From Bacteroidota bacterium (lineage in GTDB: Bacteria; Bacteroidota; Ignavibacteria; Kryptoniales; JAKASW01), in the NCBI GenBank assembly GCA_023480735.1, contig JAMCXB010000008.1, positions 1 to 42,451 of the forward strand: a DNA stretch of 42,451 bases, read 5' to 3'. The notes below the pieces were generated by a model. That model had not been told where the DNA came from, searched no databases, and saw only the letters and a list, made by a program, of their open reading frames with translations. Positions 1 to 16,901 of the stretch are shown here, piece by piece. Every line of letters begins with the position of its first letter. Position 1 is the stretch's first letter. The translations under genes were made by a program, and so were the position numbers.

Positions 1-149
1 CCGGCAAAGAGTTTCTCATCTTCGACAACCGCGACCGTTTTGGGCAGCTTCTTTATGAAAAGTCTAACAGCCCTGGAGAACTGGAAAGCTCTCTCTTCCA
101 AGTCATTCGCATGTCGGTTTACTGCTGAATGTAGTTGACTGCCATCCAT
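1..149 (-). CDS. Four-helix-bundle protein (IVP/S23-like), 3' end outside window
   Basis: A 49-codon N-terminal fragment runs off the left edge. The translation contains LEERAFQFSRAVRLFIKKLP, which matches the typical opening of the four-helix-bundle family first described in 23S rRNA intervening sequences and related to the Avd accessory proteins. The usual function is unknown; nucleic-acid binding is suspected. The chosen ATG (147-149) gives MDGSQLH before the family signature; in-frame ATGs just upstream lie inside the GGAAT repeat tract. It lies 50 bases downstream of dsrK on the same strand, where dsrJ would be expected in many sulfate reducers. Recognition is from the short motif only. 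Confidence 0.6.
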   Translation of the reverse strand, partial: MDGSQLHSAVNRHANDLEERAFQFSRAVRLFIKKLPKTVAVVEDEKLFA

Positions 150-156
150 CTCAGAC

Positions 157-207
157 TCCATCATTCCAGAATCCCATTATTCCATCACTCCGCATTCCAT
201 CATTCCG
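157..207. repeat. GGAATRATGGAAT repeat tract at dsrK 3' end
   Basis: On the minus strand this stretch is a run of degenerate GGAATGATGGAAT-like units: GGAATGATGGAATGCGG, then GGAGTGATGGAATAATGGG, then GGAATGATGG. The tract overlaps the last codons and stop of dsrK and extends up to the start of the four-helix-bundle gene. The same unit type recurs at 4003-4099 and 10114-10150. Confidence 0.75.
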
Positions 208-1819
208 CTTTTTCGCACTGCCCCTCTAACGGCTCTCCACGGAGATCCGTGTCCCTCTGCTTTTCGCCCGTCATGACAAGCGCGTTGCCGACGAGCTCAT
301 GAACTCCGCCGACTTCCACGCCTCCAACCCAATATTCCATTAGAGGCGGCAAAGTCGCCTTGTCGATCGCACAGATGCAGCCGAGGAAATTGACGTCGTG
401 TTTCTCTTTCACAAACCTGACTGCATTGGCTCTCGGCAGTCCGCCTCTCATTCTCATCTCGAGATTTTCGTCAGTCCCAAGCCCGGCGCCGCTTCCACAG
501 CAGAATGTCTGTTCCTTGATCGTGTTCTCCGGCATCTCAAAGAAATGATTGCACGAATTCCTGATTATGTAACGGGGTTCTTCAATCAGGCCCAATGCCC
601 GCGCGGGGTTACATGAATCGTGAAAAGTCACCCGCCTGTTGTTGTTTCGATTCTTATCCAGCTTAATCTTTCCGTTCTTAATGAGATCTGCGGTGAACTC
701 GCATATATGTACCATCTTGGTCGATCTGGCATTCCGGAATTTCGTCCCGGTAATCGGAGAGACCGGCTCTTCCAGGAAATCTGCGGGGCCGTTCAGCGTG
801 TTCATATATTGATGCACCACTCTCCACATGTGACCGCATTCGCCGCCGAGTATCCATTTGACGCCAAGCCGACTGGATTCAGCATACATCTTTGCGTTGA
901 GACTCTTCATGAGGTCATGTGAGATAAACGACCCGAAGTTTCCGCCTTCCGACGCGTACGTGCTCCATGTGTAATCCAGACCTATCTCGTGAAACAGCGC
1001 AAGGTACCCGAGCAGGGTGTAATAATGAGGTGTCCCGAAGTAATCTGCAGATGGAGCAATGAAGAGAATCTCCGCCCCTTTCTTGTTGATCGGGGCCTCG
1101 ACTTTCACTCCCGTTATCGACTCCAACTCATCGACGGCGAAATCGATGCTGTCCTTGAAGCCGTGCGGCTGGATGCCGAGATGATTGCCTGTCCTGAAAC
1201 TGTTGGCAACGGGTGTGACGACCCAGTCGATATTGATTCCTATGAGATTCAGCAGCTCACGGACCAGCAAAGTGATCTCGGCGGTGTCGATGCCGTACGG
1301 ACAAAAAACCGAACATCGCCTGCACTGTGTGCACTGGTAGAAGTAATAGAACCATTCTTTTACGACATCGAGTGTCAGCTCACGTGCGCCTGCAAACTTG
1401 CCGAAGATCTTTCCCGCAAGCGTAAAATCATTTCTGTAAACCGACCTGAGGAGCTCTGCCCGCATGACCGGCATGTTTTTCGGATCTCCGGAGCCGATGA
1501 AGAAATGGCATTTGTCCGCGCATGCCCCGCACCGGACGCAGATGTCCATGAATATCTGCAACGAGCGGAATCTGTGGAGCCTGTCCCGGAGTCCTTCAAG
1601 CAGGATTTCCTTCCAGTTTTCAGGCAGCTTCCAGTCGGGATCGGTCGGCTGCCATTTTCTTGGATTCGGCAGCTCCAGGTATTCGATGTTCTTCGGATTC
1701 CCGCTGTAGTTGAATGTCCCCTCTTTAAAATCGACCGACTGATCCATCCAGCCTTTGGGCGGAAGATTGTACTTGATTTTGCTGGCTAATTCTTCAGGTT
1801 TTAATTTTGATCCGGACAT
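200..1819 (-). CDS. dsrK: Sulfite reduction-associated complex subunit DsrK
   Basis: Cytoplasmic HdrD-like iron-sulfur subunit of the Dsr membrane complex, thought to reduce the DsrC trisulfide with electrons from DsrM. The 539 residues hold two C-x2-C-x2-C-x3-C [4Fe-4S] motifs (Cys94/97/100/104 and Cys163/166/169/173). They also hold the paired CCG-type cysteine regions for the noncubane cluster (HDSCNPARALG, then CCGSGAG). Length fits DsrK. The start follows dsrM after two bases, with AAGGAA as ribosome binding site, so the two are translationally linked. The last codons and the stop lie in a GGAAT repeat, so the C-terminal tail may have been altered by that repeat. The HdrD paralogue at 15393-16901 differs in having Cys-poor spacing in its first cluster. 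Assignment is strong because of the dsrM neighbour and the dsr context. Confidence 0.9.
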   Translation of the reverse strand: MSGSKLKPEELASKIKYNLPPKGWMDQSVDFKEGTFNYSGNPKNIEYLELPNPRKWQPTDPDWKLPENWKEILLEGLRDRLHRFRSLQIFMDICVRCGACADKCHFFIGSGDPKNMPVMRAELLRSVYRNDFTLAGKIFGKFAGARELTLDVVKEWFYYFYQCTQCRRCSVFCPYGIDTAEITLLVRELLNLIGINIDWVVTPVANSFRTGNHLGIQPHGFKDSIDFAVDELESITGVKVEAPINKKGAEILFIAPSADYFGTPHYYTLLGYLALFHEIGLDYTWSTYASEGGNFGSFISHDLMKSLNAKMYAESSRLGVKWILGGECGHMWRVVHQYMNTLNGPADFLEEPVSPITGTKFRNARSTKMVHICEFTADLIKNGKIKLDKNRNNNRRVTFHDSCNPARALGLIEEPRYIIRNSCNHFFEMPENTIKEQTFCCGSGAGLGTDENLEMRMRGGLPRANAVRFVKEKHDVNFLGCICAIDKATLPPLMEYWVGGVEVGGVHELVGNALVMTGEKQRDTDLRGEPLEGQCEKAE

Positions 1820-1821
1820 TT

Positions 1822-2814
1822 CTATTCCTTATCCAAAGGTAATCCCGCTTCTCTCATCTTTTCCCTGAATTCATCTTCGTATTCTTCGTAAGTGTGAACT
1901 CTCACCGGGTGATTCCACGGGTTGACATGCCTCTTCATGCGACTGTTGTTCGCAAGGTTTCTCGTCGGCGAGAGGAACACTCCGGGCATGTGCAGGAGCT
2001 TGCTGAACGGGAAATATGCAAGGAGCACGCAAACCAGGAACAAGTGGACATAGAACAAGACTCCGATTCCCTGGGGAACCACAGGATGAAACGAGAACAA
2101 TCCAACCGCCAGCTCCTTCACATTTACCAGATCGATTCTGAAAAAGTAGCGCATCAGGATTCCGGTAGTCGCTATGCTGAAAATCAGGAAAAGCGGAAAA
2201 TAATCTGATGACAGAGAGATATATCTGAGCTTGGTAACGGTGAGGCGCCTCAAAATCAAGAACGTTAACGCACTCAAAATCAGGACATCCGTTATATAGA
2301 GACCAGGCAAACCTATCTGGAAGAAACCGTCAATCCCATCAAGCCCGAGCACAAAAGGAGGAATCGGTTGCATGAACAGCCTGAGATGTCTCAGGACGAT
2401 AATCAACATCGACCAATGAAACACAATCGCACCGAGCCACAAATACTTGCTGCTGCCGTAAACCAATTTCGGCCCGTTCTTCAGTTCCATTTTCGTATTC
2501 CTGAACAACGACCGAAAGAACAATATCTCGATCGCCATTCTGCCGATAACGCCCAGTGTATTGTGAGGGCTTTCCAATTTGCTGTCCTTGATCCACGGAA
2601 GAGATTTCTGTTGTCCCGCGATAGTTGGAATATGGAACGGCACCGGCGAGGTCGACCATTTGATAACCCGGTAAATTATGCCGACGAGGAAAACGCTCAT
2701 GGCCGCATACGGAAAGACGACGCCGAAGAAAAAATCCAACCGAGGGACACTCGCTCCCAGGAGGGCAGCTGCTATGATTACGAGGACTGCAAAGAGTGAG
2801 AAGATAACATCCAT
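1822..2814 (-). CDS. dsrM: Sulfite reduction-associated complex subunit DsrM
   Basis: Integral membrane b-type cytochrome of the NarI/DsrM family (330 residues), the menaquinol-oxidising partner of DsrK. Several hydrophobic segments are visible: two near the N terminus, one around FHWSMLIIVLRHLRLF, then ITDVLILSALTFLIL, FPLFLIFSIATTGILM and FYVHLFLVCVLLAYFPF. Candidate haem-ligand histidines lie in FHW, RHL, YVH and KLLH. The C-terminal tail HVNPWNHPVRVHTYEEYE is hydrophilic, as in DsrM. The ATG at 2812-2814 is preceded by GAAGGGAA. It lies 100 bases after the RsbRD-domain gene and two bases before dsrK. Confidence 0.9.
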   Translation of the reverse strand: MDVIFSLFAVLVIIAAALLGASVPRLDFFFGVVFPYAAMSVFLVGIIYRVIKWSTSPVPFHIPTIAGQQKSLPWIKDSKLESPHNTLGVIGRMAIEILFFRSLFRNTKMELKNGPKLVYGSSKYLWLGAIVFHWSMLIIVLRHLRLFMQPIPPFVLGLDGIDGFFQIGLPGLYITDVLILSALTFLILRRLTVTKLRYISLSSDYFPLFLIFSIATTGILMRYFFRIDLVNVKELAVGLFSFHPVVPQGIGVLFYVHLFLVCVLLAYFPFSKLLHMPGVFLSPTRNLANNSRMKRHVNPWNHPVRVHTYEEYEDEFREKMREAGLPLDKE

Positions 2815-2914: not shown

Positions 2915-3439
2915 CTAACCATCGCGCTTCACATGCTCGTCGTTCCTGATATCACCATTTTCCGCCGTCGACTGCCGCGATCTCGCCTTTACCTCGTCAA
3001 GCCGAATTCGAAAGAGTTTTTCCCTCGAATCCATATACGAGTCAAAGGCGATCAGAGCCAGATTGTCGATTCTGGATTCAAGTTCCGCAAGTTCATCACT
3101 GGAACAGATCTCACCGGCTTCTTTTTCAATCTCGTTGCGAATGACCTCTTTCAAGTCAAAGACGAACCTGATTGCCTGAGACGGTGAAAACTCCTGAACG
3201 GCCCTGATCCTGACAACATCCTTCAGGAGTGTCTCCGTTACCCGGGAGTCGCTGTCACCGATGAGCTCATCGAATATTGCTCCGGCGCTGCTGGATATCG
3301 TGTAACCGACAGGGTTCGCAAACCGATCCTTCTGCGAAATCAGAAATTTCAGACTTTCTGACGGGTAAGAGCCGAGGATTCTTTGAACCCATTTATCGAC
3401 GATTGCTGATTTCTTCTTTACCAATAGTTCTCGTAGCAT
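2915..3439 (-). CDS. RsbRD N-terminal domain protein in dsr operon
   Basis: A 174-residue protein beginning MLRELLVKKKSAIVDKW and containing the pattern SYPSESLKFL followed by DRFANPVGYT. This resembles the RsbRD N-terminal (globin-like sensor) domain proteins commonly found beside dsrMKJOP in sulfate reducers. It ends in a charged tail with no STAS domain, so it is not a full stressosome RsbR protein. Function is unknown; a sensory or assembly role for the Dsr complex is only inferred. The frame is open further upstream (to 3532), but family-like sequence starts at this ATG. Neither candidate start has a clear ribosome binding site, so the start is uncertain. It lies between dsrC and dsrM. 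Confidence 0.7.
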   Translation of the reverse strand: MLRELLVKKKSAIVDKWVQRILGSYPSESLKFLISQKDRFANPVGYTISSSAGAIFDELIGDSDSRVTETLLKDVVRIRAVQEFSPSQAIRFVFDLKEVIRNEIEKEAGEICSSDELAELESRIDNLALIAFDSYMDSREKLFRIRLDEVKARSRQSTAENGDIRNDEHVKRDG

Positions 3440-3619
3440 AGCGGTCACAAACAATGCCATGGTTCGTTTAGGATTTCGGATTTCGTGCCGCCCAATTCCC
3501 ATTTCAGGCAGTGAGATGTATGTGGCGGCCACTCTTTTTGCCCGTCGGCAGAACAGACCGGCTGTATCTTCCTTTGCGGGCGATCGACTGAAAGACTAGG
3601 AGATGAAGTCCGGGACTTA

Positions 3620-3937
3620 CTAAACGCACCCGGTCGGTTTTGCAAGACCCGCTACTTTGCAGGCTCCTTTTGCGGGACCGGACGGATACAAATCGTAAAT
3701 CTCCTTCAGTGAGAAGCCGGTCTCCTTGCAAACCTTTCTGACCATCGGCGCGATTCCGTACTTCTTGTAATAATCGCGGAGATAATAGACGATCTTCCAG
3801 TGTGCTTCCGTCATCTCTTTCACGTCTTCGGTCGTGGCAAGCGCTTTGGCTACTTCTTCATTCCATTCTTCCGGTTTCTGCATGAAACCGTCTTCGTCGA
3901 CTTCAATCTTGACGCTTCCATATTCAAAGGTCTGCAT
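3620..3937 (-). CDS. dsrC: DsrC sulfur-carrier protein
   Basis: A 105-residue DsrC/TusE-family protein. The flexible C-terminal arm ends GACKVAGLAKPTGCV with the two functional cysteines, Cys93 and the penultimate Cys104, ten residues apart. This marks a true DsrC substrate/partner of DsrAB and DsrMK, not a TusE-only protein. DsrAB loads sulfite-derived sulfur on it to form the trisulfide that DsrMK then reduces. The core motifs HWKIVYYLRDYYKKYGIAP and MVRKVCKETG are intact. An AGGA ribosome binding site lies about eight bases before the ATG. It follows dsrL after a 165-base gap filled largely with a GGAAT inverted repeat. Confidence 0.95.
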   Translation of the reverse strand: MQTFEYGSVKIEVDEDGFMQKPEEWNEEVAKALATTEDVKEMTEAHWKIVYYLRDYYKKYGIAPMVRKVCKETGFSLKEIYDLYPSGPAKGACKVAGLAKPTGCV

Positions 3938-4102: not shown

Positions 4103-5809
4103 TCACCTCATCTCGATGTAGCCGCACGGGCAATTTTCCGCGCACTTGTTGCAACCCTTACAGAAGTCCAGCTTGAACTTGTAAGTGCCGTGCTTCGTGA
4201 CAGGTTTGACTATCGCCTGGTCCTGGCAATAGCTCCAGCAGGTTCCGCAGTCGAAACATGAGCCGCAGCTCATGCATCTCTTTGCTTCATCAATTCCCTG
4301 TTCTTGGGTCAGCGTGGAAGTAATTTCAAGATTCAATCCTTTCCCGAAGGGATCACTTCGTGACAGTCGTTCTTCAGGCGAGAGCTTTACAGCTTCGTTT
4401 CTCAGCTTATTTTCATAGTAGCTTAGAATGACTTTGTCATGAGTAATGACCGGCGGTTTCTGTTCGGGCTCAGGTTGAATGTTCTGAAACCTGTTATGGA
4501 TCGTTTCCGCGGCCATTCTCCCGTTGAAGATTGCTATGGTAACCAACCCCAATTCCAGGTCATCGCCGCCCGCATAAGTATTGGGAACCCCGGTTGTGCC
4601 GCCATCGTCAGCCTTAATCCAGTCCTTTCCTTCGTGAAGGATCTCAAGGCCGGTAAAATCGGGCTCCTGGCTGATGGCTGCGATGACCGTGGAGGCATCC
4701 AAATAGAAATACGAATCAGGAATTGGAACAGGCTTCCTTCTGCCGGATTCATCGGGTTCACCGAGTTCCATCCGCTGGCACTTCATCTTTGTGACCTTGT
4801 CACCATTTCTCTCGAAATCTGCCGGAGCTGCCAGGAATTCCAGTTTAACGCCTTCTTCTTCGGCGCCTGAAATCTCTTCTTTGATCGCAGGCATCTCGTT
4901 CCTCGTCCGCCGGTACACGATAGTCACATCGGCACCGAGGCGCCGCGAAATTCGCGCCGCATCTATGGCAGTATCCCCGGCCCCGACGACAAGAACTTTG
5001 TTCCCGACTTCGACAGCCTCACCTGAGTTGACCCTGTTCAGGAATTCGGTTCCCGTGAAAACGTTCGCCGCTTCTTCGTTGGGAACACCCAGCAATCTTC
5101 CCTTATGCGCACCTATCCCGACAAATATTGCGTCGCAATCTCTCTGCAATTCCTCATAAGGAATATCTCTGCCGACGATCCGGTTGCATTTGATCTCTAC
5201 TCCAAGCTCCTCGATCCTCCTGATTTCCTTGTCCAGTACGTCAGCGGGGAGTCTGTAGTTCGGAATACCATATCTCAACATTCCGCCCGGTTTGCTGAAG
5301 GCTTCATAAACCGTTACGTGGTAACCCCTTCTCGCCAACTGGTATGCGCAAGACAGGCCGGCCGGGCCGGCTCCGATGACGGCGACCTTCTGTGGAAAAA
5401 CGGCTTCGGAAATCCGCCGGAGCTTAAAGCCGTTCTCGAGCGCATAATCACCGACGAATCTTTCGAGGTTGTTAATGCCGACGGCACCGTCCTTGTGGCC
5501 TCGGTTGCATTCGTCTTCGCAGGGATGCGGACAGACTCTGCCGCATATCGAAGGAAGCGGGTTCTTTTCCGTGAGGATTTCCCAGGCCTTCTGAAAAGAC
5601 TCCTGATAAGTTCTCCCGGAATCTTCAGACTGACTGATAACGGTGAGAAACTCTCTGATGTTGGTACCGTTGGGACATCCATTCGAGCAAGGTGGCGTTT
5701 TAGGGACCTGAACAGGTCGTAATGGCGAAGTCTCCACGGCAGAACTGCCTACCGATTGAGACCTCAGACTTCCTAACGGTTTCGATACTCTCTTTACAAC
5801 CTTCGCCAT
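4103..5809 (-). CDS. dsrL: DsrL, NAD(P)H-linked iron-sulfur flavoprotein
   Basis: A 568-residue protein of the glutamate synthase small-subunit-like family. Domains in order: a GltD-type N-terminal Fe-S region with cysteines in CSNGCPNG and ICGRVCPHPCEDECNRG; an FAD Rossmann motif VIGAGPAGLSCAYQL with PGGMLRYGIPNYRLP; an NAD(P)H-binding VVGAGDTAIDAAR; and a C-terminal ferredoxin region with CMSCGSCFDCGTCWSYC and CKGCNKCAENCPCG. This layout is that of DsrL, which exchanges electrons between NAD(P)H and DsrAB/DsrC. The position between dsrN and dsrC supports DsrL over an ordinary glutamate synthase beta subunit, as no large subunit is nearby. DsrL is typical of sulfur oxidisers, but a second group occurs in organisms that reduce sulfur compounds. 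The subtype cannot be set without a tree. Confidence 0.85.
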   Translation of the reverse strand: MAKVVKRVSKPLGSLRSQSVGSSAVETSPLRPVQVPKTPPCSNGCPNGTNIREFLTVISQSEDSGRTYQESFQKAWEILTEKNPLPSICGRVCPHPCEDECNRGHKDGAVGINNLERFVGDYALENGFKLRRISEAVFPQKVAVIGAGPAGLSCAYQLARRGYHVTVYEAFSKPGGMLRYGIPNYRLPADVLDKEIRRIEELGVEIKCNRIVGRDIPYEELQRDCDAIFVGIGAHKGRLLGVPNEEAANVFTGTEFLNRVNSGEAVEVGNKVLVVGAGDTAIDAARISRRLGADVTIVYRRTRNEMPAIKEEISGAEEEGVKLEFLAAPADFERNGDKVTKMKCQRMELGEPDESGRRKPVPIPDSYFYLDASTVIAAISQEPDFTGLEILHEGKDWIKADDGGTTGVPNTYAGGDDLELGLVTIAIFNGRMAAETIHNRFQNIQPEPEQKPPVITHDKVILSYYENKLRNEAVKLSPEERLSRSDPFGKGLNLEITSTLTQEQGIDEAKRCMSCGSCFDCGTCWSYCQDQAIVKPVTKHGTYKFKLDFCKGCNKCAENCPCGYIEMR

Positions 5810-5873: not shown

Positions 5874-7310
5874 TCACACTAGAGCCAGGTTAGCAGCCTT
5901 CTTTGAAGCTCTGTACTTGCTTGCACACTTAATCATCCCGTTCACCCATTCAGGGGAAGAAGTCGCGTGTATGTGCATGTAGCTTGCGAAGACGTTTTTG
6001 TATGTCAACCCGTCTCTTTTATCGAAGCACCCGACTCCACGAGAAAGAGAAAGAGAAAGAGCCGTTTCAATCCCGGTATCCTGGTCAGCGATCTTAGAGT
6101 AGTGAAATTCATGACCTTTGATCGCAGTGCCCACCCTGAAGAACGGATTGTCGCGATCCACAGAAGCTTCGCAGTAGCCATGACCCTGCGGCCTATCGTC
6201 CATAGACACCTTGATCGGCAGGACACCGGACATCGAATATTCTTTTCCATTCCATTCAATACTTCTTGCCAGGTACATCAACCCGCCGCACTCGGCATAG
6301 ATCGGCAAGCCGTTCTCGGCGGACTCTCTGACGCCGGCAATCATTTCCCTGTTCAGGATCAGATCTGTCAGATTCATCTCAGGAAAACCGCCGCCTATGT
6401 AGAGTGCATCCATATCGCCGCTCAATTTCCCCCGGCTGGGAGAAATCGGAATCAACTCTGCACCGGCTGCCTCGAGCATCTCAAGGTTCTCAGGATAGTA
6501 GAATGAAAAAGATTCGTCTTTGAAATAGGCGATTCTTAATCCATTGCCTTCTCCGCCGTGTTCCCGAATAGTTCTGTCGTTTACCGGTGATGGACCGTAC
6601 TCTACCGGAAGCGCTTTCTCAGCAACTTCGACGATTCCCGCTACATCAACATTATCCTCTACGACGTTCTTTGCCTCCTGCAGAAAACACAGGCTCCTCT
6701 GAAACTCACCCGGCATTATTAGTCCGAGATGTCTTGAAGGCAAAATAGATTTTCCCGACAATCTCGGAATTGCTCCAAACACAGGAACACCGGTTGTCGC
6801 TTCGATTGCATCTTTTACGACGCACGCATGTCTCTCGTTTGCCGCGTGATTCAGGATGACGCCCGCAATTTTCACTTCCGGATCGAACTTCACACATCCC
6901 AGGACTGTCGCGGCCGCCGTACGCGTAAGCTTGGAAATGTTCAACACAATTATGACCGGAACCTGCAGCAGCTTAGCGAGCTCTGCTGTGCTGTGAGTCC
7001 CGCTGCTGTCCACTCCGTCGAATAATCCCCTGTTTCCCTCGATGACGCTGACATCATCCTTGCCGGCGTATTTCAGAAACGAATCCTTCGCCGGAGCAAA
7101 TCCCATCAAATATGTATCGAGATTCCTGGCCGGTTTGCCTGAAGCCAGACTCAGCCAGGCGGGATCGATATAGTCCGGGCCTTTCTTGAAGGCAGATACG
7201 CTGAGGCCCCTGCCTCTGAAACACTTGAGAAGACCGCAAGATATTACCGTCTTTCCTGAATCACCTGACAGACCGGCGACAATCACTCTGGGATAATTAC
7301 CGTCAAACAT
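5874..7310 (-). CDS. dsrN: DsrN, CobB/CbiA-type sirohaem amidase
   Basis: A 478-residue cobyrinic acid a,c-diamide synthase-family protein. The N-terminal ATPase domain opens PRVIVAGLSGDSGKTVISCG (P-loop), with KKGPDYIDPAWLSLASG and EGNRGLFDG downstream. The C-terminal class I amidotransferase-like domain includes YIGGGFPEMN and YAECGGLMYLA, with the nucleophilic Cys in AECGG. In dsr operons this protein is DsrN, which amidates sirohaem to the sirohaem amide found in DsrAB. The frame is open to 7526, but the family begins at MFDGNYPRV (ATG 7308-7310), and a longer start would add 72 residues unlike the family. The ribosome binding site is weak. It sits 150 bases after dsrD and 64 before dsrL. 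No cobalamin genes are nearby, which supports the sirohaem role. Confidence 0.87.
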   Translation of the reverse strand: MFDGNYPRVIVAGLSGDSGKTVISCGLLKCFRGRGLSVSAFKKGPDYIDPAWLSLASGKPARNLDTYLMGFAPAKDSFLKYAGKDDVSVIEGNRGLFDGVDSSGTHSTAELAKLLQVPVIIVLNISKLTRTAAATVLGCVKFDPEVKIAGVILNHAANERHACVVKDAIEATTGVPVFGAIPRLSGKSILPSRHLGLIMPGEFQRSLCFLQEAKNVVEDNVDVAGIVEVAEKALPVEYGPSPVNDRTIREHGGEGNGLRIAYFKDESFSFYYPENLEMLEAAGAELIPISPSRGKLSGDMDALYIGGGFPEMNLTDLILNREMIAGVRESAENGLPIYAECGGLMYLARSIEWNGKEYSMSGVLPIKVSMDDRPQGHGYCEASVDRDNPFFRVGTAIKGHEFHYSKIADQDTGIETALSLSLSRGVGCFDKRDGLTYKNVFASYMHIHATSSPEWVNGMIKCASKYRASKKAANLALV

Positions 7311-7459
7311 GGACTTTAGACCTGATCGTGGTAAGCTCCAAACAACAATTAAATCCCAATTGACAAGGAGTAAAACACATTGCAAGCTGCTCCATTTGCG
7401 TTCTTGGCTTTTGGAATTTGTTCGAATCTCGATGTCTGGAACTTGGACCTTGTAGCAAG

Positions 7460-7708
7460 TTAGTTCTCGGCCCCTTCTTTGTGCGGGATCTCGATGAAAC
7501 TTCCGCCGAAATATGTGTAGACGCATTTCCCGCTTTCAATCAGGTCCCTGATTGCGGATTTCGCCACGTTCTTATCGCATCTTTCGCCGAACAACTCCGT
7601 CACCGCCTTTGTCAGATCAGTGGCCTTCCACTTTTTCTGGCCCATGCTGTCTCTTATCATCTTGTACATTGCATCAGAGACTTCTTGAACACTTGCTTGC
7701 TCTGCCAT
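7460..7708 (-). CDS. dsrD: DsrD winged-helix protein
   Basis: An 82-residue protein with the DsrD fold signature: KKWKATDLTKAVTELFG, then CDKNVAKSAIRDLIESGKCVYTYFGGSFIEIP. DsrD is a small winged-helix protein placed directly after dsrB in reductive-type operons and is reported to stimulate DsrAB sulfite reduction; it is generally absent from sulfur oxidisers. It is 11 bases downstream of dsrB, with AAGGAG before the ATG. Length is normal. Its presence argues for a reductive direction of the pathway. Confidence 0.93.
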   Translation of the reverse strand: MAEQASVQEVSDAMYKMIRDSMGQKKWKATDLTKAVTELFGERCDKNVAKSAIRDLIESGKCVYTYFGGSFIEIPHKEGAEN

Positions 7709-7719
7709 GATAGTCTCCT

Positions 7720-8802
7720 TTAATGAGTTAAATGCGTGGAGCGTTTGAATGTCAATCCTGCATGCTTGAAGTCGTCAATATGTTCCTTCTGGAACGGGAT
7801 TCCGGTCAGTTCGAAAAATCTCGGCCAGCCGATGCGGTTGATCCATTCACCCATTCTCTCGTACTTCCTCGCGTTCTTCGCCCAGACCTCTACCAGGTTT
7901 CTTACGGCATCGACAACTTCGGGCCATCTCGGCGGGTTATTGGGCAGGAACGGAATAGCCAGCTTGGAGAACATCGGTTCGCTTCTCGCGTTGGAGACTT
8001 TTCCGCCGACCCATATCGAGACTCCATCGTTCAGCGGATCGTTCAGATGCATTGCCGGACAAACCGTATAGCAGTTCGCGCAGAACATGCATCTCTCTTC
8101 GATGACTTCTACCGATGGAACTCCGTCGATGGTAGCGGGTCTGACGGCAGCCGTCGGACACGCCGAGACTACAGATGGAATCTCGCACATTGCTTTCAAC
8201 TTGGTCCGGTCGACTTTCGGAGGTCGCCGGTGGATTCCAAGGATCGCTATGTCTGAACAGTGTACGGCTCCGCACATGTTCAAACAGCACGCCAGCGCAA
8301 TCCGCAGCTTAGCCGGGAGTTTCATGTCGGTGAAGTAGCCGACCAGCTCATCCATCACCGACTTGACGATACCCGATGCATCCGTGGCCGCCGAGTGACA
8401 GTGCACCCAACCCTGCGTATGCACGATGCTCGAAATCGAATTCGCCATGCCGCCGACCGGGTGACCTAGCACCCTCAGATCCGCTATCAAGGGATCTATC
8501 TTTGATTCATCGGTCAGCAAGAATTCCACATTGTTACGGCTGGTGAATCTCAAGTAGCCGTTCGAATATTTATCAGCCAGATCGGCGTAGGTCCGGATTT
8601 TATCAATACTCAGGAGCCTCGGTGATGCGGCACGAACAGTATAGAGTCTTGCCCCGCTCTGCGAGACCGTTACCATGACTCCGGGCTTCACGATCTCGTG
8701 ATATTTCCATTTCCCGTAGTTTTCTTTTATGATCAGTGGTAAGAACTTTTCGTAATGGGGTGGACCGATATCGGTTTTTCTTTTCGCTTTCACTTCAGCC
8801 AT
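7720..8802 (-). CDS. dsrB: Dissimilatory sulfite reductase subunit beta
   Basis: A 360-residue DsrB. The sirohaem/[4Fe-4S]-binding region reads [20 protein letters not shown], and the inserted ferredoxin domain has [18 protein letters not shown]. The conserved [20 protein letters not shown] stretch follows the family, where TPATDASG is more common. The ORF is open to 8841, but MAEVKAKRK at 8802 is the natural start, overlapping the end of dsrA by eight bases, which implies translational coupling. It pairs with DsrA as an alpha2beta2 enzyme reducing sulfite by six electrons. A tree would tell the reductive bacterial type from the oxidative type. Confidence 0.96.
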
Positions 8803-9994
8803 TATTGTCCTCCTCTTCAAAATATTCTTCGTAAAACACATAAGGATTCTCTCTGGGATGCGCGACCATTTCTGGAATCGGCTCTACGCCAATCGCCTCC
8901 AGGAAATTGCCCATTCCGACCCTCTGAATGAACTCGCCGACTCTCTCGCGGTTCTTGCCGTTTTCGGACCATACCTCATGAATCTTACCCACCAGTTCGA
9001 TGAGTTCCGTATATGGCGGTTCGAGCTTAATGAATGGTATCAGCACCGAAGAAAGGAGCGCTCCTTCGACAATAGGCGCCTTGGCGCCAATGAGAATGCA
9101 AGCTCCGCGATCCTTGCCGGGAGAAAGCGCTTTGGGCATGGCGTTAATGCAGTGCATGCACTTGACGCAGGCTTTGTTATCGATTTTGATTTCCTTCCCA
9201 TCCCACTCCATGCACTTAGCAGGACAATTACCGACGACATCTTTCTGTATGTTCATGCCAGATTTAGCATACTCTGTCACGGCGGCTTTGTCCATCTGGA
9301 TGTCATCTCTCCATGTTCCGATGATCGACATATCGGAGCGAGCAATGGCTGCGACGCAGTCGTTCGGGCAACCTGACATCTTAAATTTCCATTTGTACGG
9401 GAAAGCCGGCCTGTGAAGCTCGTCCTGGTAGTGCATAGTCAGGAAGTAAGTCAGCGCCATCGTGTCATAGCACGCCCATTCGCATCGAGCCATGCCGCAG
9501 CAGCAGCTCGGTGTTCTCACATCGGAGCCGGAACCGCCGAGATCAAATCCCAGGTCGGTCAACTCCTTGAATGTAGGCTCCAATTCATCAGTCTTGGTCC
9601 CGAGAAAAACCAAATCTCCGGTTGAGCCGTGCATATTCGTCAAGCCTGAGCCGTGCTTTTCCCAGATATCACACAACTTTCTCAACACGTCGGACGTGTA
9701 GAACCAGCCGGCCGGTTGGTTGATACGCATTGTGTGGAAGTGAGAGACATTTGGAAACTCCTCCGGCAGATCAGAGTACCTGCCGATTACACCACCGCCG
9801 TATCCGAGGACTCCGACTATGCCGCCATGTTTCCAGTGCCCGATTTTTTCCTCGTACGAACGTTCGAGTTGGCCGAGCAGATCGTCAGCCATCGCATTCT
9901 TTTCCGCTGCGGTTTTTATCTCTTTTACAAAACTGGGCCATGCACCCTTTTCAAGCTCGTCTAGTTTCGGGGTCTTCCTTTTTTTCTCAGGCAT
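8795..9994 (-). CDS. dsrA: Dissimilatory sulfite reductase subunit alpha
   Basis: A 399-residue DsrA, first gene of the operon. The sirohaem/[4Fe-4S] ligands are visible as CGMARC (Cys165 and Cys171) and CPNDC (Cys209 and Cys213). The ferredoxin insert has [10 protein letters not shown] and [15 protein letters not shown]. Other family blocks are [20 protein letters not shown] and [17 protein letters not shown]. The frame is open upstream to 10162, but [10 protein letters not shown] at 9994 is preceded by AAAGGAG at good spacing and matches the usual length. The DsrB start lies within the last codons. All cluster ligands are intact, so the enzyme should be active. Confidence 0.96.
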
Positions 9995-10379
9995 CTTTGC
10001 TCCTTTGTTTAGCTGAACACATTGAAAACATAAACCTGAGTCGGCGCGGAAACAAGAAACAGAGGGTTTTTTGTATTCTGAGTGTTGAATGGGAAACAAT
10101 AGGAGTGTGAATTGGACAGTGGAATAGTGGAATGAAATTATGGAATAGCGACCAGATGACATGGTGAAAAAGGATCAGGTCATAATCGGCAAAACAGGTT
10201 CGTACAAGTTATCCGGACTTTGTTTCTGTTTCGAACGGAGATCTGCGTCACTATCTTGTGTAGATTCTCCCGGACAATAAACGCAGAAAATCGCGGAACC
10301 GCACTCGTCTGCAATAGATAGCCCGGATGCGACAAGGCAGATGGCGTGTTCCGAGCGGACCGCCCCGGATCGATATGAA
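9995..10379. other. dsr operon leader and promoter region
   Basis: About 385 bases without a gene, between dsrA and the transposase-like gene, which is on the same strand upstream. The dsr promoter should lie here, but no clear sigma-70 pair could be assigned. It contains the third GGAAT repeat copy (10114-10150). Nothing else recognised. Confidence 0.5.
10114..10150. repeat. GGAATRATGGAAT repeat upstream of dsrA
   Basis: The plus strand reads GGACAGTGGAATAGTGGAAT, then GAAATTATGGAATAGCG. The first ten bases match the left arm of the 4003-4099 unit. Here only one arm is present. It lies about 120-156 bases upstream of the dsrA start. Confidence 0.7.
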
Positions 10380-12054: not shown

Positions 12055-13926
12055 TCACTTCCCTGCTTGCCCAACATCCGGCAACACCACGTTGTCAAAA
12101 TGCGGCAAGGTAACGTCCCATTTCATTCCCGCTTTTAATTCGGGAGGAGTGCCGATTCTATGACACGTCGAGCATTGAGCAAGATTTGGTTTATCTTTTA
12201 CTTTCTTAGCTTCGACCGTATGACACGAAACGCAAAGCTTGTGCATGGCATCCACATAAGAAGGTATGTAGTATTTCTCGGTAGCGTTCTTTTCGTCGGC
12301 AAGGAACTTGTAAGCCGGATGGCAGGCAGTGCACTTCTTCGCCGATTGGGCGGTCCGAGTCACACCAGGGGTGTGGCAGTCATCGCACCTGAGATTAGCT
12401 CCGGAAGCGGATGTATGCCAGTCGTGTTTGAAGAAGTCGACTTCTTTATACATACTCGTATGACACTCCCAACAGCTGCTCAACTTATCACCAGGAAGGC
12501 TCAGATGATGACAGACCCGGCAACTGTCCTTGCCAATCCTGGAAATATGACCCTCATGAGAAAACTCGACGAACTGATCGTCACGGTTGCCATTTATGCA
12601 CAAGGTATCGCACAGCGAATCGACGACGGTTGCGGGTTTCACCGTGATTTGATCGATTCCTTCGGCATGCAATCGATTTCCGGACATCAAGGCCATACCG
12701 AGGGCAAAGCTCAATACAAATGCAAGCGTATGTTTTGTCAGAGATGCCACGCTGGGAATTCCAAGCCAGGTCCGGGATGAGTAGTCAAATGACGGCAGGG
12801 TATGCGGAAGGGACTCCGGATCCTCCGGGCGTATATCCCAGACATGGAAGTTTTCGATCGCAAACAGAAAGACCAATACGGCTGCCGAGACAACTCCGAG
12901 ACTGATGGCAATTTCCATCCAAGATGGCGTGTAGGAGGCTGTGGAATCAAGCATCGCCAAACCGCCCACATCAATTCTGTTGAGGACCATCCCTATCACC
13001 ACCATCGACGAGCCTATCCATTGGACTTTATTGTTTCCGCGATATTTCGGAACGAAGAACAATGCCGCGGGGATAATCGTCGACACCAGAACTTCGACTA
13101 TGAAAAGATTACTCTGCCATTTCCCGTCGAAGATCAGACCGAGTTTTCCCGATACCGTTATGTCTGTCATTTTAGCGACAAAGTATATGGCGAGGACCCA
13201 TGCCGCCGCCCTGCAAAGCTTTGCCACGAGGTGAGTTTCCGGCTCACGGCGGTATAGCCAGTGCGACGCAAGGCTTTCAAAGGCTACCATCATCAATCCA
13301 AGCGCGACAGCCGAAATGAAAAATTCAACGGGTAGTATGTGTGAATACCACAATGGGTAAAGTCTGTAGCGCATTATAAGAAACAATGTCCCCAACGATG
13401 ATTGGTGCAATGTGGAGAGCATTATGCCCAGGAGCACTAGCGGGAAACGAAACTTCATGAGAAAATCTCTGATCCTTGCATACCGGCTGAATTTTTCCAG
13501 CGGGACCGGGCTGAACTCAAGGAGCAATACTGTCGTGTAAAGCATAACGCACCAACCGACCTCGAACAGCGGCGAGTGAGGGTTCCAATAGATTATCATG
13601 TGCCAGATATTCCAGGGCAGTCCGAGATCGACGAGCAAACCGGCCACAACGGCAAGGTAGCCGAGGAACGCTGTCAACACGGCTGGTTTAACCATCGGGT
13701 GACATTCTTCCCTCTTCATTATATAGAAAATTGCGGTGGTCACAAAACCGCCTGCAGCCAGAGCGACTCCTGCCATCACATCGAAGCCTATCCAAAATCC
13801 CCAGGGCGTTCTGTCACTCAGATTGGTCGTCACTCCCAACCCGAAGACGTACCGGTTGAGCGCGACTGCCGCCGCGAAACCCGTCAGAAACCATAAGATC
13901 AGCTTTGTATTTTGCACCCTATTCAT
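12055..13926 (-). CDS. NrfD/HmcC-like membrane protein fused to hexahaem cytochrome c
   Basis: A 623-residue fusion. Residues 1 to about 400 form an NrfD/HmcC/DsrP-type quinone-reactive membrane domain with many transmembrane segments, opening MNRVQNTKLILWFLTGFA and including WGFWIGFDVMAGVALAAGG. After a further hydrophobic segment (LAFVLSFALGMALMSG) comes a C-terminal domain with six CxxCH haem sites at about Cys469, 485, 514, 532, 565 and 585 (CRVCH, CWECH, CDDCH, CTACH, CVSCH, CSTCH). It also holds additional histidines that could serve as distal ligands. In Hmc and Dsr complexes the cytochrome (HmcA, DsrJ) is a separate protein. Here the hydrophobic linker would place the haems outside the membrane. 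The start overlaps the ferredoxin gene by eight bases. It is last in its operon. Confidence 0.88.
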   Translation of the reverse strand: MNRVQNTKLILWFLTGFAAAVALNRYVFGLGVTTNLSDRTPWGFWIGFDVMAGVALAAGGFVTTAIFYIMKREECHPMVKPAVLTAFLGYLAVVAGLLVDLGLPWNIWHMIIYWNPHSPLFEVGWCVMLYTTVLLLEFSPVPLEKFSRYARIRDFLMKFRFPLVLLGIMLSTLHQSSLGTLFLIMRYRLYPLWYSHILPVEFFISAVALGLMMVAFESLASHWLYRREPETHLVAKLCRAAAWVLAIYFVAKMTDITVSGKLGLIFDGKWQSNLFIVEVLVSTIIPAALFFVPKYRGNNKVQWIGSSMVVIGMVLNRIDVGGLAMLDSTASYTPSWMEIAISLGVVSAAVLVFLFAIENFHVWDIRPEDPESLPHTLPSFDYSSRTWLGIPSVASLTKHTLAFVLSFALGMALMSGNRLHAEGIDQITVKPATVVDSLCDTLCINGNRDDQFVEFSHEGHISRIGKDSCRVCHHLSLPGDKLSSCWECHTSMYKEVDFFKHDWHTSASGANLRCDDCHTPGVTRTAQSAKKCTACHPAYKFLADEKNATEKYYIPSYVDAMHKLCVSCHTVEAKKVKDKPNLAQCSTCHRIGTPPELKAGMKWDVTLPHFDNVVLPDVGQAGK

Positions 13927-14689
13927 CGGCGGATTCCTTCTTGTTGCCCCGTTCCTTGTCCATTTTCATCCTGCGACGGATTATCCAGTTGAGTCCGAGC
14001 ATCGCTCCGCCCATTCCGACAAAGGCAAACGGCACCGATTCCATTGCGGCAGCCGTTTCTTTCGGAAGCGGTTTGTCGCCGGGTCTTGTCGGGTATGTAA
14101 GAAAATCGAGATAGATATCCGAAAGATATAGAACGGAAGTGCCACCAACTTCGTGCTCACCCCACACCTTATCGATATATTTGGCGGGGTTCTCTTTGAT
14201 TCTCTTGTGAGCCACTTCGAGGAGCTCATCGCGATCGCCGAAGATCGTTGCCCCTACCGGACAAGCCTCCGTACATGCCGGCTGTTGTCCTGTTTTAATC
14301 CTGTCATAACAAAGGATACATTTCTCCACATGCGGGACAGTCTTGTCCCAGTCGTAACGCGGGATCCCGAACGGACATGCCATCATGCAGTATCGGCATC
14401 CGAGACATTTAGTAATGTCGTACGTTACGGCACCGATTTCGGTTTTGTGCAATGCACCGACCGGGCATACGGAAGCACACGCGGGTTCAAGACAGTGACG
14501 GCATTGTTTGCGGACATAATGATCGCCGGGCCTGCGGATCACCGAGGTCCAATTTTCTGCGGAGAGTCCGTCATTCCTGTCCCAGATCCTAGGCACGTCC
14601 ATTTCGAGATTGTGTACCTGCTTGCAGGCAGAAACGCACTTAAGACAGCCGATACACTTCGTAACATCTGTCAATATTGCTTTGCTCAA
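13919..14689 (-). CDS. Four-cluster ferredoxin subunit (HmcB/DsrO-like) with C-terminal anchor
   Basis: A 256-residue ferredoxin of the HybA/HmcB/DsrO group with four cysteine clusters: CIGCLKCVSAC (Cys12/15/18/22), CRHCLEPACASVC, CLGCRYCMMAC and CILC paired with CTEAC. A C-terminal hydrophobic segment, VPFAFVGMGGAMLGLNWII, is followed by RRRMK and could anchor it. The start is inferred as TTG at 14687-14689, which overlaps the stop of the preceding gene and has AAAGGAGC upstream. The reading frame stays open further upstream, but only as the antisense-free shadow of that gene. No twin-arginine signal precedes the first cluster, unlike DsrO and HmcB, so the clusters may face the cytoplasm. 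It overlaps the NrfD fusion gene by eight bases. Confidence 0.85.
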   Translation of the reverse strand: MSKAILTDVTKCIGCLKCVSACKQVHNLEMDVPRIWDRNDGLSAENWTSVIRRPGDHYVRKQCRHCLEPACASVCPVGALHKTEIGAVTYDITKCLGCRYCMMACPFGIPRYDWDKTVPHVEKCILCYDRIKTGQQPACTEACPVGATIFGDRDELLEVAHKRIKENPAKYIDKVWGEHEVGGTSVLYLSDIYLDFLTYPTRPGDKPLPKETAAAMESVPFAFVGMGGAMLGLNWIIRRRMKMDKERGNKKESADE

Positions 14690-15396
14690 ACCGGTGCTCC
14701 TTTTTTGCTGAGTGTTGCGCAAATATCTTCGTCCGTCTTCGGCGGAAATTTCCATGCCAGCGCATCGATAACCTGCGAGAACGGCGCAAGCACGCAATGC
14801 GCTATCTTTGTGAAAGGTGTCATGAAAAATATCAAGTCGCCTGACAGGACATGAACCAGCATGAGAAACTGATAGACACCTGCGCTGATATTGAGATTCG
14901 CACATACGAATCCGGTGACAAAAGGAAGAAGAAGCAAGAGCAGCCACAAATAGTCCTGCCCCCGGCTGAGCGAGTGTATCGATTTGACCACCAGGCGCTC
15001 GACTAACATGAGAGTCGCAAAGACTATTGTGGCGGCAGTAAGCCAAAAAGCCCACCAGTAAGGAAGAGCGGGCCAGGAAATGCCTACAGAGCTTTTCCAA
15101 AGACTGATGTGTGCGAACAGGAAGACCGGCACAATTATCAGTCCGATATGGAACAGTATCGAAAAAAACGAATACACTTGCCGGTTCCGAAAGACTCTTT
15201 TCACCGGGAAAACCCATTCAAATGTGCGACTGGCTATCAGCCTCCAGGGCATTTTCTTGTCGCCCGCCCTTCGATATACCTTTTGCGCTCCCCAAAAATC
15301 GAGGAATAATATACGCGCTAAGCCCAGAAGCATGATTATGAAGCAAAGCCGGAAAAGCGGACCACGGGCGAACTGCAGCAGAAATCCCATGCTCAC
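14686..15396 (-). CDS. NarI/DsrM/HmcE-like b-type membrane subunit
   Basis: A 236-residue membrane protein with about five hydrophobic segments, including LFRLCFIIMLLGLARILF, FFSILFHIGLIIVPVFLFAH, WAFWLTAATIVFATLMLVE and YLWLLLLLLPFVTGFVC. Histidines in FHIG, FAH and MLVHVLSG are suitable haem b ligands. It resembles the gamma subunit family of nitrate reductase (HmcE, TmcC, DsrM). It probably passes quinol electrons to the HdrD-like protein encoded just upstream, with which it overlaps by four bases (ATGA). The stop overlaps the TTG start of the ferredoxin gene. Confidence 0.82.
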   Translation of the reverse strand: MSMGFLLQFARGPLFRLCFIIMLLGLARILFLDFWGAQKVYRRAGDKKMPWRLIASRTFEWVFPVKRVFRNRQVYSFFSILFHIGLIIVPVFLFAHISLWKSSVGISWPALPYWWAFWLTAATIVFATLMLVERLVVKSIHSLSRGQDYLWLLLLLLPFVTGFVCANLNISAGVYQFLMLVHVLSGDLIFFMTPFTKIAHCVLAPFSQVIDALAWKFPPKTDEDICATLSKKGAPV

Positions 15397-16901
15397 TTCT
15401 CCTTCCCCTCCGAAGAATCACGAGGATCGGAGAGACCGTTATTCTGACCAGCGGTGACTTCCTCTTCTTTCCTGACAAGCAGCGAATCGTCGAACTTGAT
15501 TGCCTTGTAGACCAGGTCATGGAATCCGACGACGCGGCAATCAAGTCCCTGATCTTCAACCAATTCTCTCAGCTGTTTCTTGCAGTTAGCACAGGGTGCC
15601 ACAAGAATTTCACATCCCGATTTTCTGATTTGTTCCGCCTTCAGTTTGCCGCCTATTGTCGTTCTGTACGGCCTCAATTCATCCATCGAGACCGCACCGC
15701 CTCCGCCACCGCAGCATATATTGTCTTCACCCGCAGGAGTCATCTCCACATAATTCTTACAGAATGATCTCAAGACTTCACGCGGCTGGTTCACAATCCA
15801 GCGGTTCCTTGCAAAGTTGCACGGATCATGGTAGGCAATCTTCTCGGTGATTACGTCAGGATTAAGATTGAGCCTCCCCTCCTTCCAGACTTTGTAAGTG
15901 TATTCCAAAATGTTTATCACCGGCACAGAGTCTTCTCCCCCGCAGTAAGTCGGCATGAAATTCTTTGCTACGCGCGACGCATGGCCGCATTCCCCTATTA
16001 GGACATGTTTTCCCTTGAGTCTTCTTGTTTCCTGATCGACATTTTTGATGACTCTTTCCAGTATTCTGTCGTTGTAGAAAAGACCATAGTTGATCGCATC
16101 GAAGTAGCCAGTCCCGATTGTCCAGGAATCCCCTGTCGCCGCAAATACTGCGGCAATTCCCATCAACGAATCCGCTTCCATCAGGTAGTCGCTGACCGGG
16201 GCGAAGAACACGTAGTCGCTGCCTTCTACATCCGTCGGAAATTTTATCTCTACCGATTTCTCTTCAAACATGTCGTCTTCAAGAAATTCGAGAGTGTCTT
16301 TCAAAGCAGGGACCGGCACCGCAGACGTGTTGTGAAACGGGCCTTCAAGCTGCGCGCGTACGCTCACAGCCAGTGCACGCGGGACGATTCCGATTTCGCT
16401 CAAGATGTAACGACCAAGGTGTGTAATAAGTCCGTGATCCAATCCGAGCGGACATTCGAGGGCACATCTTCTGCATGCCGTACAGTTCCAGAAGCTTTCC
16501 GCCACTTCCTGAATTTTCTCATCCGTCAAATACCCGCCGCCGGAAATGCGCCCCTTCAACAATCCACCCATCGTGAAATGACGGCGATACACGTCCAGCA
16601 AAAGCCCCGAACGATAGCACGGGATATCCTTCGGGTCGTCGGTTGCCTGATAGATATGACAAGCGACCGCACATCGCGAACACCTGCCAGTCATGCGGAT
16701 GAAATGATCCAATACCATTTTGTAGTTTGAATGCTTGAGTATTGCCGCAAACACTTCCAGGAATCGACGTGGACGGTCGTTAACGTCACAGTCTTCGACG
16801 TGATAGCGAACATTCAGTTTTTGTCTTTCTACCACTTCCGGTTTTTTAGTAGAGGCCAAGGCTTTCTTACGCTCTTCATCGGTTACAACAGTAGTTCTCA
16901 T
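15393..16901 (-). CDS. HdrD-like CCG-domain iron-sulfur protein (HmcF/TmcB/DsrK paralogue)
   Basis: A 502-residue cytoplasmic protein. The second [4Fe-4S] motif is canonical (Cys140/143/146/150 in CTACRRCALECP). The first reads CSRCAVACH with Cys74, Cys77 and Cys81 only; a fourth ligand is not obvious, although Cys95 in DIPCYRSG is nearby. The C-terminal half has two CCG-type cysteine regions: GECGH and YHDPCNFAR, then CCGGGGGAVSMDE and APCANCKKQL. This architecture is that of HdrD, DsrK, HmcF and TmcB, which handle disulfide or low-potential electron transfer. It heads the overlapping block of four genes. It is a clear paralogue of dsrK at 200-1819, but with distinct cluster spacing and no close neighbour dsrC. 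Confidence 0.85.
   Translation of the reverse strand: MRTTVVTDEERKKALASTKKPEVVERQKLNVRYHVEDCDVNDRPRRFLEVFAAILKHSNYKMVLDHFIRMTGRCSRCAVACHIYQATDDPKDIPCYRSGLLLDVYRRHFTMGGLLKGRISGGGYLTDEKIQEVAESFWNCTACRRCALECPLGLDHGLITHLGRYILSEIGIVPRALAVSVRAQLEGPFHNTSAVPVPALKDTLEFLEDDMFEEKSVEIKFPTDVEGSDYVFFAPVSDYLMEADSLMGIAAVFAATGDSWTIGTGYFDAINYGLFYNDRILERVIKNVDQETRRLKGKHVLIGECGHASRVAKNFMPTYCGGEDSVPVINILEYTYKVWKEGRLNLNPDVITEKIAYHDPCNFARNRWIVNQPREVLRSFCKNYVEMTPAGEDNICCGGGGGAVSMDELRPYRTTIGGKLKAEQIRKSGCEILVAPCANCKKQLRELVEDQGLDCRVVGFHDLVYKAIKFDDSLLVRKEEEVTAGQNNGLSDPRDSSEGKEK

Follow-up and report, generated by a model that had tools for sequence, protein, structure and literature searches.

Among the respiratory complexes that combine HdrD-like, NarI-like, ferredoxin, NrfD-like and cytochrome subunits, the usual one that accompanies dissimilatory sulfite reductase (dsr) genes is DsrMKJOP, in which DsrJ is encoded by a separate three-heme gene. 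The Hmc complex of Desulfovibrio (HmcABCDEF) has an HdrD-like, a NarI-like, a ferredoxin and an NrfD-like subunit, together with a separate periplasmic 16-heme cytochrome, HmcA. Qrc (QrcABCD) comprises a module of ferredoxin, NrfD and multiheme cytochrome and, to our knowledge, has no HdrD/NarI pair. Nhc (NhcABCD) has the same module and likewise lacks the HdrD/NarI pair in the available text of PMC8076601 and PMC4215793. Tmc (TmcABCD) has HdrD-like and NarI-like subunits and, according to the available text of PMC4215793, no NrfD subunit. A second HdrD/NarI pair, dsrM-2/dsrK-2, is described for dsr genomes, sometimes near dsrAB, in the available parts of PMC6018796 and PMC6338057; HdrD, Hmc and NrfD are not mentioned in those of PMC6338057. 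Here, we describe a four-gene operon, denoted F-E-B-C, on contig JAMCXB010000008.1 of a metagenome-assembled genome (MAG) of a Bacteroidota bacterium. The window analyzed is this entire contig of 42,451 bases. F-E-B-C encodes a real, recurring, Dsr-associated complex, and we hold with moderate confidence that it serves the Dsr pathway as a further, Hmc-like transmembrane electron-transfer complex beside DsrMKJOP. No account of the operon was found in listings of open-access literature or in the available open-access text of PMC6018796, PMC8528874, PMC10591310, PMC8076601, PMC10553843, PMC10564751, PMC13047784, PMC10504309, PMC6338057, PMC4215793 and PMC12998232.

The operon consists of four open, intact reading frames on the minus strand. 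F (15393..16901) is an HdrD-like subunit of 502 residues with CCG (PF02754) and PF13183 matches; E (14686..15396) is a NarI-like membrane subunit (PF02665) of 236 residues with a GTG start; B (13919..14689) is a four-cluster ferredoxin subunit with an inferred TTG start; and C (12055..13926) is an NrfD-like protein (PF03916) fused to a cytochrome c (PF02085) with six CxxCH motifs. The six-heme domain, defined by these motifs and conserved histidines, occupies residues ≈450–590 of C (12157..12579). The genes overlap by 4 bases (F/E), 4 bases (E/B) and 8 bases (B/C). The E/B overlap (TTGA) depends on B starting at the TTG at 14689, which sits 7 bases behind an AAGGAG; the N-termini of the B orthologues fit the same start. 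The best NCBIfam matches were to DsrK for F (E = 6e-82), HmcC for C (6e-90), HmcB for B (1e-73) and TmcC for E (2e-31), values so low that the matches cannot be due to chance. The first-pass annotation had already described these subunit classes and the short overlaps, and had placed the operon about 2 kb upstream of dsrA on the same strand; Pfam and NCBIfam agree with the former, and the measured distance from the end of C to the first in-frame ATG (10162) of the dsrA open reading frame (ORF) is 1.9 kb. Within this ORF, the alignment to TIGR02064 starts at residue 67.

In spite of these matches, the proteins fall below the family cut-offs of their best-matching Hmc, Tmc and Dsr models. F scored 276 bits against DsrK (cut-off 400), 199.5 bits against HmcF (NF045711, cut-off 750) and 200 bits against TmcB (cut-off 735); as a control, the HmcF of locus L089 scored 824 bits with the HmcF model. 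C scored 302 bits against HmcC (cut-off 550) and only 34 to 36 bits against DsrP (cut-off 350), while B reached 248 bits against HmcB (cut-off 420) and E reached 107 bits against HmcE (cut-off 275) and 109 bits against TmcC (cut-off 240). The scores against HmcA (NF045713, cut-off 400) and QrcD (cut-off 570) were 31.8 and 125 bits, respectively. The architecture also differs: instead of the separate 16-heme HmcA or three-heme DsrJ, six hemes are fused to the NrfD subunit, and while Hmc includes HmcD, the overlapping F-E-B-C genes leave no gap for such a gene (no HmcD model search was made). The operon nevertheless shows all the structural features of the broad kind of CCG-containing NarI/NrfD respiratory complexes, namely a CCG motif, two 4Fe-4S sites, a di-heme b subunit, a four-cluster ferredoxin, an NrfD subunit and periplasmic c-hemes. 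We regard F-E-B-C as a variant of the Hmc/Dsr kind.

A tree of 90 HdrD-like sequences was built with a quick method; its deep joins are uncertain, and long-branch effects have to be kept in mind. F forms a clade of its own (34 rows) with a support of 100 in the Shimodaira–Hasegawa-like approximate likelihood ratio test, separate from DsrK (33 rows), a group of 10 rows that contains the Hmc-type proteins from Desulfocurvus and Desulfobacterales, a third paralogue (11 rows) and two distant outliers. The third clade, whose proteins are ≈30% identical to F, includes a gene located 1.1 kb after dsrC in L145, which by its position is a presumed dsrK-2; both F and a presumed dsrK-2 are present in L013, L015 and L037. 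Identification of F as HmcF, TmcB, DsrK or dsrK-2 was rejected on the basis of the cut-offs and the tree. In a second tree, made from the NrfD part of C (91 rows), all 55 fused sequences make up a single clade (support 100/98), with the 36 unfused NrfD sequences, including the Hmc type, outside it. The fusion of NrfD and cytochrome therefore looks to be of single origin. Neither F nor C shares a clade with the Hmc-type proteins found in L085 and L089. Divergent copies of F-E-B-C, also with six CxxCH motifs, were seen in L252, L253 and L254; the genomes of the first two (G320 and G339) hold a closer copy as well.

A single scan with C yielded 80 loci. The 43 genomes sampled through it were chosen by conserved peptides of C, and the sample is thus biased to relatives of C. 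F, E, B and C occur in the same order in 33 of 44 C loci (L010–L052 and L055), and these genes turn up in dsr genomes of several phyla. In four of the loci (L028, L031, L032 and L033), F precedes E by 1.4 to 3.7 kb and other genes intervene, and in L020, L051 and L052 some operon genes are split or cut by contig ends. The remaining 11 C loci have no F (L024, L034, L036, L039, L040, L042, L044–L047 and L055); the upstream sides of L039 and L042 are cut off by contig ends. Record titles and tree labels assign the C loci to Bacteroidota, Kryptoniota, Ignavibacteriota, Zixibacteria, Calditrichota, Myxococcota, Fibrobacterota and Chloroflexota, as well as to Acidobacteriota (L024, without F) and Bdellovibrionota (L042, no F at the locus). 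Physical linkage to dsr genes was seen in close relatives: in L010–L013 and L015–L018, dsrA follows 1.5 to 8.4 kb downstream of the operon, with both on one strand; L014 is too short to show it. No dsr genes were found within the flanks of the C loci other than L010–L018.

Further genes accompany some of these operons. Response regulator and histidine kinase genes follow the operon in L022 (11829-14600, by Pfam) and, by similarity, in L013, L015, L019, L020, L025 and L035; genes for the rrf1/rrf2 regulators come after the hmc operon. Directly upstream of F, a gene of the Nitro_FeMo-Co type is found in six loci (L022, L019, L023, L026, L027 and L029); its product, for which the match is shown in L022 (6227-7006), is also weakly MrpORP-like.

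The operon follows the dsr genes across phyla, mostly beside DsrMKJOP. In the 43-genome set, dsrA and DsrP were found over cut-off in 31 and 28 genomes, respectively. F is present at the C locus in 33 genomes; those of the F-less loci are outside this count, except for G016, which has an F-less copy (L034) and F at L025. dsrA was over cut-off in 29 of the 33, in support of the link to dsr genes proposed in the first-pass annotation, and all except G005 had dsrA or DsrP. DsrP was over cut-off in 22 of these 29 dsrA-positive genomes. A second sample consisted of 132 genomes from Zixibacteria, the phylum of G013. F was counted here when the best match in a genome reached ≈500 bits, fragments included (the next class begins at 425 bits), or, for G011, when it was split over two contigs. 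dsrA was over cut-off in 47 genomes and F was present in 42, with both in 35 (Fisher p = 5e-15 on this strict dsrA table, uncorrected for kinship). The seven F-carrying genomes without a full dsrA have either dsrA/B fragments (five) or DsrP (two), so that all 42 have some dsr evidence, and F was found in none of the 77 genomes without dsrA over cut-off, a fragment or DsrP. DsrP at E ≤ 1e-60 is present in 39 of the 42, the exceptions being G011, G275 and G319. In the class of the window, sampled with 197 genomes from a larger group, a full-length fused C was found in seven genomes, all of them among the eight with dsrA over cut-off. These seven all belong to the genus of the window, of which six other genomes have neither fused C nor dsrA. 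In this genus, the fused C and the dsr genes form one linked cluster that has probably been gained or lost as a block.

The cofactor ligands are well conserved. In F, one CCG motif is complete and two 4Fe-4S motifs are present; the eight ferredoxin-type cysteines, C305 and the CCG cysteines 361, 396, 397, 437 and 440 were retained in 32 of 32 rows. By analogy with DsrK, F is taken as cytoplasmic. The probable heme b ligands of E are H83, H96, H182 and H200, and all four were present in 34 of 42 rows. The remaining rows depart from this: H200 is missing in L024, H182 in L051, and both H83 and H200 in every one of the six F-less Myxococcota loci (L040, L044–L047 and L055). By analogy with NarI, we presume that these two histidines would ligate one heme b, perhaps facing the cytoplasmic subunit. 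The joint loss of F and of this heme fits an electron path between F and E, which L024, also F-less, fits by half. In the six Myxococcota loci, the missing F also goes with a missing dsrA in the genome, a contrast that favors the Dsr link, with the exceptions given below. In C, the full set of six CxxCH motifs and six further conserved histidines (457, 460, 474, 501, 504 and 562) was found in 42 of 45 rows; of the other three, two are truncated and one (L048) lacks C532. The equal numbers suggest six bis-His hemes that would serve in electron transfer rather than catalysis. The NrfD part of C comprises residues 1 to ≈390 with ten helices, and an 11th helix joins it to the cytochrome domain. 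A hydropathy and charge estimate over 45 aligned C proteins placed the N-terminus inside, and with 11 helices the heme domain is therefore periplasmic. B ends in a hydrophobic helix with an RR that was invariant in 43 of 43 rows. By eye, neither B of the window nor any B orthologue whose start can be read shows a signal peptide (the orthologue of L039 is truncated), whereas the Hmc-type B proteins of L087–L089 have signals resembling those for twin-arginine translocation (Tat). Many unfused relatives in L053–L083 also lack a signal, so this trait extends beyond the fused complex. Structure models of F and C (predicted local distance difference test scores of 80 and 68) had the expected EtfD/HdrB-like and ActC/NrfD-like folds, respectively; the heme domain was too poorly modeled to be read. 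A search of solved structures gave one distant match each for F and C and none for E.

If F-E-B-C is an additional electron-transfer complex of the Dsr pathway, electrons would enter or leave the complex on the periplasmic side by way of the six bis-His c-hemes. They would be exchanged with menaquinone both at C/B and via the hemes b of E, and would arrive at the iron-sulfur site that the CCG motif of F provides. F would then reduce, or take electrons from, the disulfide or trisulfide of cytoplasmic DsrC. Such a complex may offer sulfite respiration a separate electron entry or exit, apart from the three-heme DsrJ. The menaquinone step of NrfD proteins is thought to be coupled to charge movement, and F-E-B-C could therefore conserve energy, although neither the direction nor the energy yield can be read from the sequence. 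Joining the quinone pool, periplasmic carriers and the DsrC cycle, as the first-pass annotation had envisaged, is the likely role by analogy; a comparable joining role has been suggested for Hmc and Tmc in the available text of PMC4215793. The HdrD class next below F in Zixibacteria (404–425 bits) adjoins DsrC-like and DsrM-like genes in four of four loci of ≈12 kb (L243–L246). These neighbors support DsrC as a likely partner of such HdrD proteins, without being proof for F. Two of the Zixibacteria loci encode proteins with two tandem DsrC-like domains (L243:6370-7038, by Pfam, and L244:4286-5068); they lack the usual extreme C-terminal cysteine and adjoin the DsrM-like and HdrD-like genes.

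A number of observations weigh against this assignment. F occurs without dsrA or DsrP in G005 and G026, the latter having an F-clade protein away from its C locus (L036), where the fused C is not accompanied by F; the Bdellovibrionales genome G032, represented in the F clade by a row on a long branch, likewise lacks matches to dsrA and DsrP over cut-off. Conversely, 12 of the 47 dsrA-positive Zixibacteria have no F, which is thus not essential, and G015 has dsrA and DsrP and a fused C without F at its locus (L024), showing that F is not needed for dsr. F is rare in the phylum to which the Desulfobacterales MAG G247 belongs: among 297 genomes from a larger group, with the best five candidates per genome scored, at least five reached 725 bits or more, at least two were near 556 bits and at least three near 390 bits. 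In that phylum, three loci with scores close to those of the HdrD class next below F (L266–L268, 388 to 392 bits) have a DsrM-like gene and no DsrC-like gene, within loci of 3.6–3.9 kb. The F-less second copy in G016 retains all four histidines of E. The cues for B conflict: by the positive-inside rule, the RR in its tail would place the clusters outside, and together with the N-in topology of C this suggests a periplasmic B, as opposed to the missing signal peptide. The co-occurrences near the window are not independent, since the linkage there represents one physical cluster. Finally, the fused C occurs without F in the six Myxococcota loci, with dsrA in none of the six genomes; one of these, G037, has a DsrP match over cut-off, and the genome-wide search for F covered two of the six (G030 and G037). 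The fused C alone hence does not track dsr.

These Myxococcota genomes also speak for the strongest alternative, that F-E-B-C is a general conduit between periplasm and cytoplasm with ferredoxin or another thiol protein as its partner, the link to dsr reflecting only a shared low-potential anaerobic life style. It is in keeping with this alternative that, in the available text of PMC4215793, Hmc and Tmc have no known cytoplasmic partner and DsrC or ferredoxin is suggested for them. Against it stand the Zixibacteria, in which every F carrier shows dsr evidence and no genome without such evidence has F, the physical linkage to dsrAB in the close relatives of the window, and the DsrC-like genes that adjoin the related HdrD class. 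We regard a general conduit as doubtful, though still a serious contender.

A second alternative concerns direction. F might oxidize DsrC-bound sulfur, and the electrons would leave by the c-hemes for an acceptor in the periplasm or outside the cell, as happens in the oxidation or disproportionation of sulfur. This bears on the cluster that follows the operon. After C, the minus strand carries a 376-residue ORF, dsrA (8795..10162; TIGR02064, 580 bits), dsrB (7720..8841; TIGR02066, 511 bits), an 82-residue ORF, a cobB/dsrN-like gene (5874..7526; named dsrN by position and from the available text of PMC6018796), a gene for a DsrL-like NAD(P)-binding iron-sulfur flavoprotein (4103..5809; NF009410, 581 bits; named DsrL by position), dsrC (3620..3937; PF04358) with two cysteines close to the C-terminus, an RsbRD_N-domain gene (2915..3532; PF14361), dsrM (1822..2814; NF038037, 534 bits, cut-off 300) and a dsrK distinct from F (200..1819; NF045796, 730 bits, cut-off 400). 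The DsrL-like gene favors the oxidative direction, given that, for Acidobacteria with DsrL, the available text of PMC6018796 proposes that Dsr of the reductive type may run in reverse. As the electron direction is exactly what the sequence does not reveal, we consider this alternative improbable.

The two other ORFs of the cluster are shared with the relatives. The 376-residue ORF (10380-11510, minus strand) combines a zinc ribbon of the IS1/IS256 type with weak matches to transposases. A chance insertion of an insertion sequence was rejected, because a homologue occupies the same site between C and dsrA in all eight close loci that reach dsrA (L010–L013 and L015–L018); for the same reason, it may be a domesticated DNA-binding protein. 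The 82-residue ORF (7460-7708, minus strand) lies between dsrB and cobB in the place of dsrD. It is 82–90% identical to ORFs at the same site in six relatives (L010–L012 and L015–L017) and has no Pfam or NCBIfam family match; DsrD is a guess from its position.

The cluster ends with the contig, which stops directly past dsrK (1..199), and an unrelated ORF begins where the close relative L151 has dsrJ. This 49-residue fragment (3-149, minus strand) is not dsrJ-like and has no Pfam or NCBIfam match, and the terminal 200 bases are present once in the MAG; the fragment may resemble four-helix-bundle insertion proteins. The L010/L151 contig, from the closest relative examined, whose C is 90% identical to that in the window, shows the order F-E-B-C, a transposase-like ORF, dsrAB, a 103-residue ORF, cobB, a dsrL-like gene, dsrC, the RsbRD_N gene, dsrM, dsrK, dsrJ with three CxxCH motifs, dsrO with a Tat-like signal, and dsrP. 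A DsrO-like ferredoxin gene after dsrK, with DsrP on the same stretch, is found in L151, L152, L155 and L156. In the MAG of the window itself, DsrP was not found over cut-off, the sole match being C at 36 bits. The MAG comprises 72 contigs and 2.8 Mb with an estimated completeness of 90.45%, compared to 3.4 to 5.0 Mb for 12 other genomes of the genus in the class sample. With the contig stopping 199 bases past dsrK and the MAG incomplete, the missing dsrJOP is uninformative. The idea in the first-pass annotation that the operon may replace DsrJOP, which would leave DsrMK as the catalytic pair and F-E-B-C as periplasmic and quinone module, would suit the subunit classes, the MAG of the window, the three dsrA-positive Zixibacteria without a DsrP match at E ≤ 1e-60 and the seven dsrA-positive genomes of the first set without DsrP over cut-off (one of which, G042, has a truncated DsrP), but it is contradicted as a general reading, and we judge it highly improbable, because the relatives carry dsrJOP too: the operon is found mostly together with the DsrMKJOP genes, an outcome that the first-pass annotation had itself named as refuting, as the DsrP counts in both samples and the gene order after dsrK in L151 demonstrate.

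Many dsr-carrying lineages outside Desulfobacterota are known from MAGs alone, and how they feed electrons to the pathway has mostly been inferred from DsrMKJOP. As an additional complex beside DsrMKJOP, F-E-B-C provides a testable candidate for an electron link, with double the heme count of DsrJ and the hemes fused to the quinone subunit. F is also a marker class, consisting of HdrD proteins that annotation may label as DsrK and that nonetheless belong to another complex. A bolder interpretation is that F-E-B-C constitutes a distinct, single-origin class of energy-conserving complexes, with a signal-less B placed in the membrane unlike in Hmc, through which sulfite respiration that depends on DsrC would connect directly with multiheme cytochromes of the periplasm or the cell exterior for DsrMKJOP-independent uptake or dumping of electrons. 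We think this unlikely at present; if true, uncultured Bacteroidota, Zixibacteria, Calditrichota, Myxococcota and others would take up or dump electrons via Dsr.

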